Assembly: GCA_017453485.1 (NCBI GenBank)
Contig: JAFTEW010000028.1
Span: 1 to 46,622 of the forward strand
Direction: 5' to 3'
Source of the DNA: Alphaproteobacteria bacterium
Lineage (GTDB): Bacteria > Pseudomonadota > Alphaproteobacteria > CAAHEQ01 > UBA3637
Length of the DNA: 46,622 bases
Shown: one piece after another, positions 1,874-7,986 of the stretch
Layout of the letters: the number at the start of each line of letters is the position of its first letter
Numbering within the stretch: the stretch's first letter is position 1
The notes under the pieces: model-generated
Told to the model about the DNA's origin: nothing
Databases searched by the model: none
What the model saw: the letters and a program-made list of their open reading frames with translations, nothing else
Made by a program: the position numbers and the translations under genes

Positions 1874-2166
1874 AACGGTTTGACGTGTATGCTTGTGAGA
1901 CAAAAAATCAGATCCGCCCTTGTGTTATTTTATCACCGGATGAAATGAATGCAACATTACCATATGTTTTGGTCGCACCGATTACAACGGTCGAGCGATT
2001 GTTTCCCTGCCGGGTTGGGGTTCGATTAAAGGGAAAGCAGGGACAGGTTGCTTTGGATATGATACGTAGTATTTGGAAAGCGCGTTTAAAAGAAAAAATG
2101 GGAACGCTACCGGACAATTCCCGACAGGAAATCGGGGATATATTGAAGCGTATGTTTGAACTTTAA
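1867..2166 (+). CDS. mazF: MazF/PemK-type toxin, endoribonuclease
   Basis: The product is 99 residues. Family hallmarks are the N-terminal KRFDVYACE strand, RPCVILSPDE (the usual RP-vvvS loop), the VAPITT strand and VALDMIRSIWKARL, which matches the conserved LDQIRTVDKxRL segment. MazF enzymes cleave single-stranded RNA at short motifs and stop growth when the antitoxin is lost. GGAG at 1856-1859 is 7 bases from the ATG at 1867 but only 1 base from the ATG at 1861, so I prefer 1867; the longer form would add two residues. The gene runs convergently into rsmE with a 4-base overlap of the stop regions. Confidence 0.87.
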   Translation: MVKRFDVYACETKNQIRPCVILSPDEMNATLPYVLVAPITTVERLFPCRVGVRLKGKQGQVALDMIRSIWKARLKEKMGTLPDNSRQEIGDILKRMFEL

Positions 2167-2852
2167 TGATTGAAACGATAACAGGCTATTGCGGCAATTG
2201 CTGCTGTTTCGGCTCTTAAAATTGTGTTTCCCATGTGCCAAAATGATGTTTGATGACGACTAAACAAGTCTAATTCATCCGGGGACCAGCCCCCTTCGGG
2301 TCCGATACATAAAGCCGGTGTTTTTTCAGAAAATTTCGGTGTTTGTTCTTGACCGCGTTCGGCCAGGCAAATCGGCTGAGCAGACGAGGGTAGGGTATGC
2401 CATAAATCGGTTAATTTGATCGGTTCATGAAGTGTCGGAATGGTCAGACGTTCACATTGTTCGGCCGCTTCAATTAACAATCGGTTGGTCCTTTCCGAAT
2501 TTATTTTGGAAACGACCGTTCGTTCCGTTATCAAAGGGTAAATATCGGAAACACCTAATTCCGTTGCCTTTTGAAAAACAAAATCCATCGGTTCTTTTTT
2601 AATCAAGGCCGGACAAAGTATCAAAGATTCATTTATTATTTGAGGTTTAGTTTGCTTGGTTAAAATTAATTGATTCTTCTTTTTTTCAAGAAGTTGTATG
2701 GTTGCTGACCATTCACCATCTCGACCATTGAAGAGCAGAACAGAATCACCAATCTGTCGGCGCATTACATGCAGCAGATAATGTGCTTGTAATTCAGAAA
2801 GTTGAATAGTTTCTTTTTCGGAAAGATTTTGGGATACGAATAATCGAATCAT
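2163..2852 (-). CDS. rsmE: 16S rRNA m3U1498 methyltransferase RsmE
   Basis: RsmE methylates N3 of U1498 in 16S rRNA using S-adenosylmethionine. The 229-residue protein has the N-terminal PUA-like segment (HYLLHVMRRQIGD, FNGRDGEW), the KKEPMDFVFQKATELGV helix and the SPOUT trefoil-knot motifs CIGPEGGWSPDEL and LRAETAAIAAI. Length and motif order are typical. The start overlaps the stop of the upstream signalling gene (ATGA at 2849-2852), so it is the second gene of a two-gene minus-strand operon. The partner has no obvious link to rRNA modification. Confidence 0.95.
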   Translation of the reverse strand: MIRLFVSQNLSEKETIQLSELQAHYLLHVMRRQIGDSVLLFNGRDGEWSATIQLLEKKKNQLILTKQTKPQIINESLILCPALIKKEPMDFVFQKATELGVSDIYPLITERTVVSKINSERTNRLLIEAAEQCERLTIPTLHEPIKLTDLWHTLPSSAQPICLAERGQEQTPKFSEKTPALCIGPEGGWSPDELDLFSRHQTSFWHMGNTILRAETAAIAAIACYRFNH

Positions 2853-4852
2853 TTGTCGCTTATCCGTAATAAAATAGATGTCACATCATCCGGCGGTGGC
2901 GGCGGAGCAAATTCAAAAAAGGCGTTCATAATTTCTCGAAGTGCTACTTGAACATTCGGATTTTTTACATATTTATCAACGATTTTTTTGAAACCGACTT
3001 CCCCTAGGCGTTCCCCATTGACAGAAGGAGATTCTGTTAAGGCGTCGCTATACAGAAATAAGGTATCCCCCGGCGCCATTTGAATGGTGTGTTCAGCGTA
3101 GGATGCTTCACGCATAATACCGAGTGGAATACCGGATGTATCCAACAATTTTGTTTTACGGCCCGAATGCCAAAATGGGGAAGGTGCATCTGCCCCGGCA
3201 TAGTGAAGTGTTCGTTTTTTCGGGTCATAAATCCCAAAAAAGAAAGTAGCAAATTGTCCGCGCGGCAACAAATCAAATAAGCGACTATTAAGTGTTTTTA
3301 AAAATTCGGCCGGTGAATTGATCTTCTTTTTATCCATTTGGGCAATAATTCCATGTAAACGGAACGTATTTAAGGCTGAAGCCACCCCATGTCCGGAAAA
3401 ATCACACAAATAGATTCCCAATAATTCCCCCCGAATGGGAAACATTTGCCAATAATCCCCCCCAAGCATGGAGGATGGCTCAAAATACTGAGCAAATTTA
3501 ATATGGAACTGTTTACCAAATTCAGCAATATGATCCGGATGCGGGAGCATATCAACCTGCATTCGGCGAGCGCTTTGCATTTCTGTTTCAATCTGATCTA
3601 ATTGATGGCGCAGATTGTAAATTAAAATTCGGTTTTCCAAATGAACCTTAACCCGGGCAAAAAATTCCAAAGGATTGATGGGTTTTGTAATGAAATCCGT
3701 AGCACCGGAACTAAATGCTTTCTCACGCATTTCCCGCGTGTCAGAGGCTGTTTGAACCAATACCGGAATATGTTTTGTTTCTGGGGCAGATTTCAGGTGG
3801 TATAAAACTTCCTGACCATTCATCCGGGGCATGGTAATATCCAAAATAATTAAGTCCGGCTTAAATGATAAAACTTTGTGGAGGCCTTCTATCCCATCTG
3901 CTGCCAGTTGAATTTGAGTGATCCCGGCTACATTTAGCAACCGTGTCAAAACGGCTTGATTGCTGGGATTGTCCTCCATTACCAATACACGACATTGGGA
4001 TAAGTCCGGATCATCCATCGGGGTGTCCGATTCATAGCGATCTTCGGCCATTGATTCGGCAGCCACCGGATGTTCAATGCGATCATGCAGTAAAAATGAT
4101 AGAGTCACCTCACGGCCAAAATCATCAATGGTGCAAGAATCCGCAATACCGGCAATCAAGCGTAATCCTCGGCCGGATTTTGCCTGAGGGGCTGGTTGAT
4201 CTGTTCTTTGAACTGTTGGAACGGATGTATAACCGGCCCCCTCATCTTTAATTTTGATTTCCAGGCGTTCATCGTTCCAACTAGCCCAAAGACTCATGGA
4301 TTTTTGAGCATAAGTCGGGTCATTTAATCGTTCGTTCAGAAGATGAGCATACTCAATAAAATCACGGGCTGATTGACGTAAATTACTGGATAATTGTAAA
4401 TTACCATGAATCAGACCGTTGACAATTGACTCATGTAGAGCCAGATGAATACTTTCGGCCAACGTTTTGGAAAAGAATAGGCGCTTTTGCAGGGCTGTTG
4501 TAAAAATACGAGCAATGTCACAAGCGTAAATAATGGGACAGGTCATCAATAAGCCCAAGACCTCTAAATCATCTGTATGGGTATGTTGAACGGCAAAATT
4601 AACAATCGAATCATCCAAAGCATTCGCATCTATGACGCTGCTGATTGGCGCATTCATCAGGTGTAACAAATTTTCCTCGGACAAAGAACCTGATAAGACG
4701 GACAATTGTTCCGGAAAGACATTTCGGTGAAGCATCCCTTCGGTCAAAAAAGGCTTTTTGGAATCGGGCCATGGCGCAAAATCAGCCAGTTGTGCAATCC
4801 GCAACACATGGTTCAGCGTGACATCCTGACCGATTAAAAATGTATTTTTCAT
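2849..4852 (-). CDS. HATPase-receiver-PP2C phosphatase signalling protein
   Basis: The protein has 667 residues and three signalling modules. Residues about 125-255 form an RsbW-like HATPase: N-box LALHESIVNGLIHGN at 137-151, G1 box KDEGAGY at 202-208 and GRGLRLI at 228-234. Residues about 287-403 form a receiver domain with acidic pair E293/D294, phosphoacceptor D338 and K390. A coiled linker follows, then a SpoIIE/RsbU PP2C phosphatase (about 450-667) with GGDYW at 464-468, D484 in CDFSGHG, D603 and D655/D656. The likely job is phosphorylation-controlled partner switching on an anti-sigma-antagonist protein. The first 120 residues match nothing I know. AAGGAG lies 8 bases before the start. 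No anti-anti-sigma factor or histidine kinase is adjacent. Confidence 0.9.
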   Translation of the reverse strand: MKNTFLIGQDVTLNHVLRIAQLADFAPWPDSKKPFLTEGMLHRNVFPEQLSVLSGSLSEENLLHLMNAPISSVIDANALDDSIVNFAVQHTHTDDLEVLGLLMTCPIIYACDIARIFTTALQKRLFFSKTLAESIHLALHESIVNGLIHGNLQLSSNLRQSARDFIEYAHLLNERLNDPTYAQKSMSLWASWNDERLEIKIKDEGAGYTSVPTVQRTDQPAPQAKSGRGLRLIAGIADSCTIDDFGREVTLSFLLHDRIEHPVAAESMAEDRYESDTPMDDPDLSQCRVLVMEDNPSNQAVLTRLLNVAGITQIQLAADGIEGLHKVLSFKPDLIILDITMPRMNGQEVLYHLKSAPETKHIPVLVQTASDTREMREKAFSSGATDFITKPINPLEFFARVKVHLENRILIYNLRHQLDQIETEMQSARRMQVDMLPHPDHIAEFGKQFHIKFAQYFEPSSMLGGDYWQMFPIRGELLGIYLCDFSGHGVASALNTFRLHGIIAQMDKKKINSPAEFLKTLNSRLFDLLPRGQFATFFFGIYDPKKRTLHYAGADAPSPFWHSGRKTKLLDTSGIPLGIMREASYAEHTIQMAPGDTLFLYSDALTESPSVNGERLGEVGFKKIVDKYVKNPNVQVALREIMNAFFEFAPPPPPDDVTSILLRISDK

Positions 4853-4879: not shown

Positions 4880-4908
4880 AGTATAACGGTCGAAACAGTG
4901 TGTGTCAA
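4880..4908 (-). promoter_or_regulatory. promoter of the HATPase-REC-PP2C/rsmE operon
   Basis: On the minus strand TTGACA (4903-4908) and TATACT (4880-4885) are separated by exactly 17 bases, close to the sigma70 consensus. The predicted start leaves a leader of about 20 bases containing AAGGAG. Confidence 0.75.
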
Positions 4909-4946
4909 GCAAAAAGAATACTCTGTTCCCGGCATAAAAAAAGATG

Positions 4947-4975
4947 TTGCAAAAAAAAGAAAAAATAGATATAGT
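4947..4975 (+). promoter_or_regulatory. promoter giving a probably leaderless mRNA
   Basis: TTGCAA (4947-4952) and TATAGT (4970-4975) are 17 bases apart. A start about 7 bases downstream falls at 4982, which is the A of the likely initiator ATG. No Shine-Dalgarno sequence precedes that ATG, which fits a leaderless transcript. Confidence 0.6.
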
Positions 4976-4981
4976 GCCCGC

Positions 4982-5740
4982 ATGTATAGAATCTTCTTGT
5001 TTTTGGGAATGATATTAGTTGTCGGTAAAGGATATGCCGCTGATATTCAATGGCCGACGGTGGCTAATATAAAATCAACCGGTGTTGCAGATATGTATGA
5101 ACGTCCCTATTCTTTGATGGAAAATGAGGTGGATAAGACAAAATTATATCGTAATACGGGTGCATTGGTTGGTGTCGGTATCGGCACAATGGCTTTTTTA
5201 TACACGATGCCGTCCAGTTTCACAAATTGGGATAATGATGACCATAAAAGTCCCGGTTCTAAATGGTGGGACAATGTATCCCGTGAACCTGTTTGGGATA
5301 AAGATGACATCTTCCTGAATTATGTGACACATCCTTATGCCGGTGCCATTTACTATATGGGGGCTCGTTCTGCGGGTGCCAATGCCGGATATTCATTTTT
5401 GTATTCATTCGCTTTGTCAACATTCTTTTGGGAATACGGAATAGAGGCTTTTGCCGAAAGACCATCTGTTCAAGATTTAATCGTGACCCCGGTTGCCGGG
5501 TCTTTATTGGGCGAAGGGTTTTATTTGGCCAAGCGCCATATTCGGGAAAATGATAATCAGTTATGGGGATCAACAAAATTAGGGAAAACAGCCGTCTTTT
5601 TGATGGATCCGATTACGGAAATAACAGATTGGTTGTTTGATCCATCAATGCAAAAGAAATCTCTTTCCTTTTCATCACAACCTCTTATTACTCGTCACGG
5701 CGGTATTGGATACGGGTTGCAAATGCAGGTTCCGTTTTAA
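4982..5740 (+). CDS. DUF3943-like envelope protein
   Basis: The product is 252 residues from the ATG at 4982. A longer form from 4898 would put 28 hydrophilic residues in front of a good signal peptide (YRIFLFLGMILVVGKGYAA) and would start upstream of the apparent promoter, so I reject it. The central region contains HPYAGAIYYMGAR, followed by FALSTFFWEYGIEAFAERPS and the DLIVTPVAGSLLGE segment, a pattern I associate with DUF3943 proteins of the Gram-negative envelope. Function is unknown. It stands as a single unit, with a separate promoter before the next gene. Confidence 0.75.
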   Translation: MYRIFLFLGMILVVGKGYAADIQWPTVANIKSTGVADMYERPYSLMENEVDKTKLYRNTGALVGVGIGTMAFLYTMPSSFTNWDNDDHKSPGSKWWDNVSREPVWDKDDIFLNYVTHPYAGAIYYMGARSAGANAGYSFLYSFALSTFFWEYGIEAFAERPSVQDLIVTPVAGSLLGEGFYLAKRHIRENDNQLWGSTKLGKTAVFLMDPITEITDWLFDPSMQKKSLSFSSQPLITRHGGIGYGLQMQVPF

Positions 5741-5794: not shown

Positions 5795-6859
5795 ATGGAA
5801 AGCAAAATTAAAGATGAAGTTGATACATCGGATACTGGTCATCAATTGATGGATTTATATAATAAAAATAAATCAAGCGATCATTTAAGAGCACCCTGTT
5901 CCGTATTTTCTTCACGGGATAAAACACCGAAAGAAAAATGGATAGAAGCCGAACAAAAACGATTGGCTGCCCGGCTGTTGGAACCTGCTCAAATCAAGAA
6001 AATAGAACGGTTAAGACCGGATAAAGTTTTCGAACAAAAAAAGATAGAAGAGTTAATCGGACATCCGCATGAAGATCCGACCTGTTTTACCATGGCAATG
6101 GCGGGTTCTCCGTTTATCGGGACGGTTGAAATGTCCAACGGTTTGAATTTATCCGTCAATATGGGATTAACATGCCATATTCATTGGTCCGGCGGAGCCT
6201 TGCAGGCACTTTCCTATTCCTTGGGGGAGGCAGAGCCGGTTTACCAATTTAAATCGAATCAAGTTTCCGTTGAAATTACCAACTTGAAAACAAAAGAACA
6301 ATGTCATGTATTACATCCGGAATATCAATTGATGGTTCGACCGATTTATGCGGACGGAAAAACAAGGGAAGGATATTTGGTTTCTTGGGCAGATACGTTT
6401 AAAATGGGGGCATATCCCTGGGAGAACGGGTATCAGGAAAATTTTGAAATTCGCAATGTGACCCCGCCGGACGGAGCCTTTCAATATCTGAAAACCCGTG
6501 GAGAACTTGGCCATGTTATTTGGCCGCAGCATATGAGGCAGGTTTTTGCCGCTATTCAAAAAGAATATGATGTCAGCCAACAAAGCGGACAAAATGGATT
6601 GCCGATTTTTACCCGCTTTGATCCATCCGGTAAAACCAGGGGTAAAATGCATGCAACGGCCTATGCCGACGGAATATCCCGTTTTGCCGGCGGTTGGTTT
6701 GAAATTCCGAATGTGGTCTATGTGCGGGGCGGTATGCGCAAGGCTCTTGGCAATATCAATCCTTTTCCGGCACTGCCGAAACCAAATCCGTTAACACTGA
6801 TCCGACAACCAGTCAGACAAATATCCGCCATCGGAAAAGAAAGACAGAGAGATACCTAA
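5795..6859 (+). CDS. uncharacterised cytoplasmic protein
   Basis: The product is 354 residues. The ATG at 5795 follows GAGGAGGT by 4 bases; an upstream in-frame TTG at 5747 lies inside the promoter. There is no signal peptide or membrane segment. Residues 1-100 are charged and probably helical. The middle is rich in aromatic and beta-forming residues (CHIHWSGGALQALSYSLG, GAYPWENGYQENFEI), and the last 40 residues are Pro/Arg-rich (PFPALPKPNPL). I do not recognise the family and see no catalytic motif. It ends 2 bases before the stop of the convergent phosphatase gene. Confidence 0.75.
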   Translation: MESKIKDEVDTSDTGHQLMDLYNKNKSSDHLRAPCSVFSSRDKTPKEKWIEAEQKRLAARLLEPAQIKKIERLRPDKVFEQKKIEELIGHPHEDPTCFTMAMAGSPFIGTVEMSNGLNLSVNMGLTCHIHWSGGALQALSYSLGEAEPVYQFKSNQVSVEITNLKTKEQCHVLHPEYQLMVRPIYADGKTREGYLVSWADTFKMGAYPWENGYQENFEIRNVTPPDGAFQYLKTRGELGHVIWPQHMRQVFAAIQKEYDVSQQSGQNGLPIFTRFDPSGKTRGKMHATAYADGISRFAGGWFEIPNVVYVRGGMRKALGNINPFPALPKPNPLTLIRQPVRQISAIGKERQRDT

Positions 6860-6861
6860 AA

Positions 6862-7986
6862 TTATTTAGAAATAATCATTAACGGCACAATCATTTCTTT
6901 GGCGGTTAATCCGGCATGAGAACTGAGAAATTCTGGACCGGAAACGCCCTCAAGCACCCGATGGCGCAAAACTTTATCGGCAGTTGCAATGATCAGATAA
7001 TCCCCTAAAAATTCAGTTATTTTAGGATGTTGTTTTCCGGGACCAAACAAACCCTTTTGCCGTGCTATATCACTTTTAATCAACATAAAATCATCGGAAA
7101 AATAACGGTGGAATGAATCAACTAATTGTTGCTCTTTATTCGGCTTTAAGAAAACAGAATAAACCCGGTCATCCATGTTAAGCGGAACTGCCAAGCAATC
7201 CGTAAAATCCGGGTAATCATTGATGTAAATAATTTTCTTAATCGGGGTGTGTCCGTGATCAGCCGAAATAATGACGGTTGTATCCGATAAAGAAGCGCAA
7301 AGATTTCGAATAGCCAGGTTTATTTGTTTTATCAAAGAAAGGCTTTCGGGGCTGTAAGTGCCGGTATGGTGGCAGGTATGGTCCGGTTCCGGCCAATATG
7401 CCAGAATAAATTGTTGTCCGGGTTGCCTCGTTTGTTTTCGAATGCGGGCGCACTGTTCAGTGAAGGTGACCGCCCCGGTCTGTCGGATTTTCTGTGGGAA
7501 GATTTCAGTGCAGGTAACAGATGTTTTTCCTTGGAGAATTTGTTTGAAAATATGGGTATAGGGTAGTTCTTTTTCTCCCGTGATTTGTGTCTGTTCTCCG
7601 GTAAAACTATCCCGGCCGGTAAACAGTTCAATATAACGATTTTGATTGGCAAAGTAGGGTGACCAACCGACCCATCCGTGACAGACCGGCGGTAAAGCAG
7701 AATAATAAGTTGTTGTAGCGGCTGTTGTTGTTGGTGGAAAAACGGATGACAGTGAATCAACTATGTGCCGACGTAAAAAGGCATTTTTAGGTAGGGCCTG
7801 TTGAATCAGGTCTAATCCTAAACCGTCCAAAATCCATAACACAACATTTTTGGGTTTGTGCCGAAGTGATTTTTTTAAGATGGGTAGAGCCGTATAACTT
7901 GTTGGAATACCATAATAATTTAAAATAGTATTCGGAATTCCCAAGATGGAGTGTGTGTAATCGGGCCAAAAAACAGACTGAGACAT
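6862..7986 (-). CDS. alkaline-phosphatase-superfamily phosphodiesterase
   Basis: The product is 374 residues, starting at the ATG at 7986, which has GGGAGG 8 bases upstream; a longer in-frame start has no ribosome site. The type I phosphodiesterase/nucleotide pyrophosphatase metal sites are visible: VLWILDGLGLDL (Asp54), the Thr-rich nucleophile segment VFPPTTTAATTTY (about 82-94), PDHTCHHTGTYSPES, IISADHGHTP, and a C-terminal SSHAGLTAKEMIVPL that supplies a metal-binding His. Such enzymes hydrolyse phosphodiester, pyrophosphate or phosphonate bonds. There is no signal peptide, so it is probably cytoplasmic. The substrate cannot be told from sequence. Confidence 0.85.
   Translation of the reverse strand: MSQSVFWPDYTHSILGIPNTILNYYGIPTSYTALPILKKSLRHKPKNVVLWILDGLGLDLIQQALPKNAFLRRHIVDSLSSVFPPTTTAATTTYYSALPPVCHGWVGWSPYFANQNRYIELFTGRDSFTGEQTQITGEKELPYTHIFKQILQGKTSVTCTEIFPQKIRQTGAVTFTEQCARIRKQTRQPGQQFILAYWPEPDHTCHHTGTYSPESLSLIKQINLAIRNLCASLSDTTVIISADHGHTPIKKIIYINDYPDFTDCLAVPLNMDDRVYSVFLKPNKEQQLVDSFHRYFSDDFMLIKSDIARQKGLFGPGKQHPKITEFLGDYLIIATADKVLRHRVLEGVSGPEFLSSHAGLTAKEMIVPLMIISK

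Follow-up and report, generated by a model that had tools for sequence, protein, structure and literature searches.

Organization of the locus

The window, by which we mean the whole stretch of 46,622 nucleotides analyzed here, contains an open reading frame in which an RsbW/SpoIIAB-like ATPase domain, a receiver domain (REC), and a SpoIIE/PP2C phosphatase domain follow one another in a single polypeptide (Table 1). The plus strand across this frame is riddled with stop codons and the coding strand is the minus strand, a point on which an earlier note on this DNA, made from the sequence alone, was silent. All three domains score above the curated Pfam cut-offs: HATPase_c_2 (PF13581) with an E-value of 8e-11 and 42.4 bits against a gathering cut-off of 27.4, Response_reg with 1e-24, and SpoIIE with 2e-39. 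The combination of the three domains in one chain, as read in the earlier note, is therefore confirmed, and so is its remark that the N-terminus belongs to no assigned domain, since no Pfam family matched approximately residues 1-112.

Table 1. Coordinates in the window of the tripartite gene, the parts of its product, and the adjacent features
Feature	Residues	Position	Strand	Evidence or remark
Tripartite protein gene		2849..4852	-	667 aa, ATG at 4852; N-terminal region, HATPase_c_2, receiver, helical linker, SpoIIE/PP2C
N-terminal region matching no Pfam family	1-112	4517..4852	-	Family motif around W28-P29...P34
HATPase_c_2 (RsbW/SpoIIAB-like serine kinase)	115-252	4097..4510	-	Pfam and profile matches
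N-box (E141xxxN145xxxHGN151)	E141-N151	4400..4432	-	Family alignment, HATPase profile
G1 box (D203EGAG207)	D203-Y208	4229..4246	-	Family alignment
G2 box (S226GRG229)	S226-L230	4163..4177	-	Family alignment
Receiver domain	289-401	3650..3988	-	Pfam
Phosphoacceptor codon	D338	3839..3841	-	Translation, family alignment
Predicted helical linker	402-440	3533..3649	-	M431-Q432...P437 invariant in alignment A2
SpoIIE/PP2C phosphatase	478-664	2861..3421	-	Pfam
rsmE (16S rRNA methyltransferase)		2163..2852	-	Start codon overlaps the stop codon of the tripartite gene; conserved operon neighbor, not part of the switch
Promoter-like site TTGACA-17-TATACT (11/12)		4880..4908	-	Just upstream of the tripartite start codon; the whole scan was no richer in sites than shuffled sequences

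The fusion was found as a long tripartite match in 32 of the 33 genomes of the window's family (f1), among them two Alphaproteobacteria metagenome-assembled genomes from sheep rumen and yak omasum; the remaining genome (G009, 85% complete) gave a match to the receiver only. Because the fused frame is unbroken across many independent genomes, it is not an assembly artefact, and the fusion of HATPase, receiver, and PP2C is genuine. In this group rsmE is the next gene after the tripartite gene in 33 of the 36 loci, the exceptions being two loci of family f22 and one that is cut by a contig end. On the plus strand of the window, a MazE-like antitoxin frame (1655-1873, assigned by sequence only) overlaps a gene for a PemK/MazF-type toxin (1861-2166; PemK_toxin, 6e-17), and a gene for a DUF3943 protein (4898-5740) diverges from the switch gene.

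Conservation of domains and catalytic residues

The N-box, G boxes, phosphoacceptor Asp338, and phosphatase metal aspartates listed in the earlier note are all present and nearly invariant in an alignment of 32 family rows (L003-L032, L082, and L083; L033 and L034 repeat L004 and L013, and rows L026 and L018 end at contig ends). In the ATPase boxes, E141, N145, H149, G150, N151, D203, G205, G207, G227, and G229 are conserved in 32/32 rows. The receiver of the window protein has E293/D294, D338, T368, and K390, and its phosphatase has D466, D484xxGHG, D603, and D655/D656; D338, K390, D466, D484, and G487-G489 are found in every row, D603 in 31 rows with one gap, and D655 and D656 in 30 rows with two gaps each.

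Losses were observed at two places. The family row L082 lacks the receiver acid pair, and in L072, a relative from outside the family, the Asp and the second Gly of the G1 box are lost (HVGEP), hence not every member need have all three activities. L072 nevertheless keeps its N-box and PP2C residues, as expected if only one enzyme of the chain were active, either a phosphatase joined to a dead kinase or the reverse, and the remaining domain acted as a platform for binding. For the window protein we regard this explanation as improbable, because its own family retains all tested ATP-box and metal residues, mostly in 32/32 rows, with gaps confined to the C-terminal aspartates.

The HATPase profile (A3) was built from 25 ATPase segments, 10 of them from the family (the window protein among these) and 15 drawn from 24 context segments; L119, L125, L126, L130, L132, L134, L135, L073, and L074 were excluded for being divergent, incomplete, or nearly identical to others. 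Among solved structures, its best match was LvrC (9qih, named "SenB" in the PDB list; 1.8e-9), followed by SpoIIAB (1e-7) and RsbW (2e-5), and its N-box, G1, and G2 line up with those of SpoIIAB. Structure models were too weak to weigh for or against the ATP pocket: AlphaFold2 with a three-sequence input gave a pLDDT of 55.6 for the whole chain, with residues 1-281 below 50, and a weak model (64.5) for residues 89-258 alone. With this weak ATPase model, the best Foldseek row was again LvrC 9qih (E-value 6e-4), the TM-scores to ATPase chains were 0.17-0.39, and VIA-align returned unrelated folds among the top rows and no Z above 3.

The N-terminal region is conserved within the family, but less so than the other domains (mean top-residue frequency of 0.49 versus 0.71 for the HATPase domain and 0.79 for REC). 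It is not always needed, since the split kinase of locus L128 begins just 38 residues ahead of its ATPase match. The idea that this region is a degenerate receiver was unsupported by HHalign comparisons with receiver, receiver-like, and STAS profiles (probabilities of 0.1-0.4%).

A single STAS protein in the genome

The genome that contains the window (1,166,094 bases, 98.6% complete) has exactly one STAS match, a protein of 100 aa encoded on the minus strand of contig C21 (3734-4036); a STAS protein elsewhere in the genome was the check proposed in the earlier note, and this one has an intact Asp-Ser motif. Within its FIDSAALG motif, Asp54-Ser55 is invariant in 20/20 rows of alignment A4, and all 30 family copies retain the DSA motif. 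The STAS profile matches TM1442, SpoIIAA, and RsbV. In the same genome, the only HATPase_c_2 match is the tripartite protein, and the two SpoIIE matches are the tripartite protein and a Cache-HAMP-PP2C protein on contig C62. The partner-switching set found in this 1.17 Mb genome is thus very small, with one STAS protein, one kinase, and two PP2C proteins. A gene for an EGF-like cysteine-repeat protein, cut by the contig end, lies near the STAS gene on C21 (L002 9071-9940, minus strand).

Among the 33 family genomes, 30 have a STAS match; none was obtained in G009, which lacks both genes, or in G024 (98% complete) and G026 (96%), which have the tripartite gene. The STAS gene is placed after trmB in 29 of the 30 genomes, away from the tripartite gene. 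With one gene next to rsmE and the other next to trmB, position alone does not tie them together in this family.

Fused and split loci in related genomes

The family profile is matched at 1e-30 in 99 of 385 genomes of the class, many of which have REC-PP2C only, and full-length fused matches occur in more than 10 families of the class. In a draw of 398 genomes from the phylum, full-length fused matches at E-values of at most 1e-50 were confined to the window's own class.

Outside the family, 25 REC-PP2C genes were analyzed, 14 of them fused to the kinase and 11 not, which gives a series, spread over the class, in which the same triad is fused in some loci and split in others. A STAS gene adjoins the module in 18 of the 25 loci. 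Both kinase and STAS genes adjoin REC-PP2C in 10 of the 11 split loci, the exception being L081, a second copy in genome G042, with neither. Among the fused loci, STAS adjoins in 8/14 (seven on the same strand; divergent in L125), and 6/14 have no STAS gene nearby. The commonest gene order, STAS, kinase, REC-PP2C, is also the order of domains within the fusion; in L074, L132, and L134 the order is STAS, REC-PP2C, kinase, and the kinase is of a different, longer type. In the genome G072 (L133 6062-8583, plus strand), a tandem pair of REC-PP2C genes stands behind STAS and kinase genes.

These counts carry the marks of their sampling. The split loci were hand-picked from match lists, and kinase adjacency in L073, L123, and L128 is a product of selection, because the match already spanned the stop between kinase and REC-PP2C. 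The second batch of split loci was chosen without regard to STAS; for L072-L074 and L076, STAS and module matches in the same genomes were already known when the loci were retrieved. The STAS profile for the neighborhood scan was trained on 24 of the 30 family copies together with L072, L073, L074, and L076. Among 24 genomes of the class that fall outside the family, the five with STAS are exactly the five with a module match at E-values of at most 1e-50, and the probability of such co-occurrence by chance is 2e-5, or 1e-4 at the 1e-30 cut, both cuts having been picked after the data were known. In related genomes, the kinase/receiver/phosphatase module has STAS as its genomic partner.

This partnership bears on the possibility that the C21 protein is not the substrate, so that the tripartite enzyme has a different target or the STAS protein depends on the C62 phosphatase and an unrelated kinase alone. 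The distance between the STAS and tripartite genes and the two high-completeness family genomes with a tripartite gene and no STAS match favor such an arrangement, which is nonetheless hardly probable given the strong co-occurrence and adjacency of STAS and the module outside the family and the lack of a second HATPase_c_2 kinase in the genome.

In a tree of 36 REC-PP2C rows, the family forms one fused group with f39, f22, and f70 (support 100/99), with f39 placed inside f1. A single fusion event was considered and set aside: parsimony counts seven changes between fused and split states (versus a mean of 9.6 for shuffled states), yet the well-supported branches force only one.

Comparison with known systems

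The earlier note had taken kinase and PP2C phosphatase to be normally separate proteins. This does not hold in general, since according to the available descriptions SypE and HsbR/CrsR already fuse all three domains; with these precedents, the fusion in the window is no departure from what is known. SypE, a biofilm regulator of Vibrio fischeri, is described as starting with a serine kinase, followed by a receiver in the middle and a phosphatase at the C-terminus, the same order as in the window protein, and by this architecture the predicted window protein is of the SypE type. SypE controls the STAS protein SypA at Ser56; likewise, the genome of the window holds one STAS protein, and both STAS proteins have a phosphorylatable Ser. 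The differences are that SypE is located in a polysaccharide locus, whereas the window gene precedes rsmE, and that the window protein has an extra N-terminal region of approximately 110 residues before the kinase, compared with SypE as described. A relative of SypE was also sought by tblastn of a plasmid collection, in which no place covered 80% of the query.

HsbR/HsbA of Pseudomonas aeruginosa and CrsR/CrsA of Shewanella oneidensis are described as systems in which a single response regulator, combining REC and PP2C with a kinase/anti-sigma domain, acts on one STAS protein; their order is REC-PP2C-kinase, in contrast to kinase-REC-PP2C in the window. The RssB/RssC system of Pseudomonas, in which REC-PP2C has a STAS partner, shares REC, helical linker, and PP2C with the window protein, but the kinase domain is absent there. 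Residues 287-607 match the NCBIfam model RR_RssB_Pseudo (NF045505; 4e-34), and the protein also matches PDB 3eq2; at 118.3 bits against a cut-off of 700, the window protein is not an RssB. The receiver and RsbW-like ATPase are also combined in LvrC of Leptospira and TciR of Vogesella, in which, as far as their accounts go, REC precedes the ATPase and no PP2C is described. The SiaABC/SiaD and stas_STYK sets of Campylobacterota have HATPase kinase, PP2C, and STAS in common with the window, including a REC-PP2C-kinase fusion, but belong to another phylum and consist mostly of separate proteins; links to c-di-GMP enzymes and chemoreceptors have been proposed for them in the accounts available. No paper on a tripartite protein from the window's family was found in the literature search, most subscription papers being beyond its reach.

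Proposed mechanism

The tripartite protein is probably a SypE-like bifunctional regulator that sets the phosphorylation of one STAS protein, as its domain content and motifs indicate. The earlier proposal that a single chain could work as kinase and as phosphatase, switched by its receiver, is supported by these domains and motifs and by D338. In the proposed scheme, the HATPase domain would use ATP to phosphorylate Ser55 of the STAS protein encoded on C21, and a histidine kinase or phosphotransfer protein would phosphorylate D338. Of the two HisKA kinases of the genome, the one encoded on contig C23, with no regulator beside it, is a candidate for this role, and the other, on C50, has a regulator of its own. 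Phosphorylated D338 would then tip the chain, via the helical linker before PP2C, to the phosphatase state, in which the PP2C domain would strip the phosphate from Ser55. The direction of this switch is carried over from HsbR, reported to be a kinase when unphosphorylated and a phosphatase when phosphorylated, and linker-coupled activation of PP2C has been described for RsbU/RssB. The ratio of phosphorylated to unphosphorylated STAS would set which partner it binds. The membrane Cache-HAMP-PP2C protein, whose gene is cut by the contig end of C62 (L077 15-1511, plus strand), may be a second phosphatase that removes phosphate from this STAS protein in response to an outside signal.

The output of the switch could in principle be a sigma factor. 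If the HATPase domain worked chiefly as an anti-sigma factor, as it does in CrsR and RsbW, it would hold a sigma factor until STAS binding freed it. Its profile matches SpoIIAB, RsbW, and LvrC, the last of which was crystallized with ADP-Mg and is proposed by its authors to be an anti-sigma factor, and domains of CrsR and HsbR are reported to bind RpoS. However, the Sigma70_r2 search of the genome yielded two sigma factors only, in open frames of 689 and 304 aa, which we take for RpoD and RpoH by size, and no dedicated stress sigma factor was found; moreover, no sigma factor target is known for SypE, which has the same domain order, in the accounts available. We therefore consider a main role in sigma factor binding unlikely and prefer the bifunctional regulator of STAS phosphorylation. 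The genome also has two GGDEF matches, and no sigma factor or GGDEF gene is tied to the STAS gene by position. The protein lends itself to the study of how an opposed kinase and phosphatase in one chain are balanced by a receiver, and of what a STAS protein regulates with neither an apparent stress sigma factor nor CheW.

Chemotaxis genes near the module

Pfam-confirmed chemotaxis genes were found near the module in 6 of the 25 loci outside the family (L072, L074, L129, L132, L134, and L135), the Pfam check being confined to loci already suspected. In L129, the order is CheY, CheA, CheR, CheD, CheB, STAS, and the fused protein; the other five loci have CheB, CheD, CheR, or a chemoreceptor close by. 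In the window's family, CheW was found in 0/33 genomes and GGDEF proteins in 32/33. CheS of rhizobia, as described, is the product of a STAS-only gene from chemotaxis clusters and binds CheA. In view of this precedent, the chemotaxis genes beside the module in relatives, and the CheW count, the module may have outlived chemotaxis in the family.

A broader scenario can be put forward tentatively, and we hold it with some doubt. A chemosensory triad of STAS, serine kinase, and REC-PP2C, which in several relatives stands at the end of a chemotaxis cluster, would have been fused in a genome-reduced gut and rumen family in which no CheW was found, and would persist there on its own as a bifunctional switch that has one STAS protein and a non-motility output, kinase and REC-PP2C having been fused or split repeatedly in the class. 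What is somewhat novel here is that the module can adjoin chemotaxis genes in relatives and is kept by a gut and rumen family with no CheW match. In the chemotaxis cluster of L072, the STAS gene and the fused switch are followed by a gene for a PAS protein (6449-7084, plus strand) that carries the motif GRNCRFLQG and resembles a LOV photosensor, which would make a light input possible.
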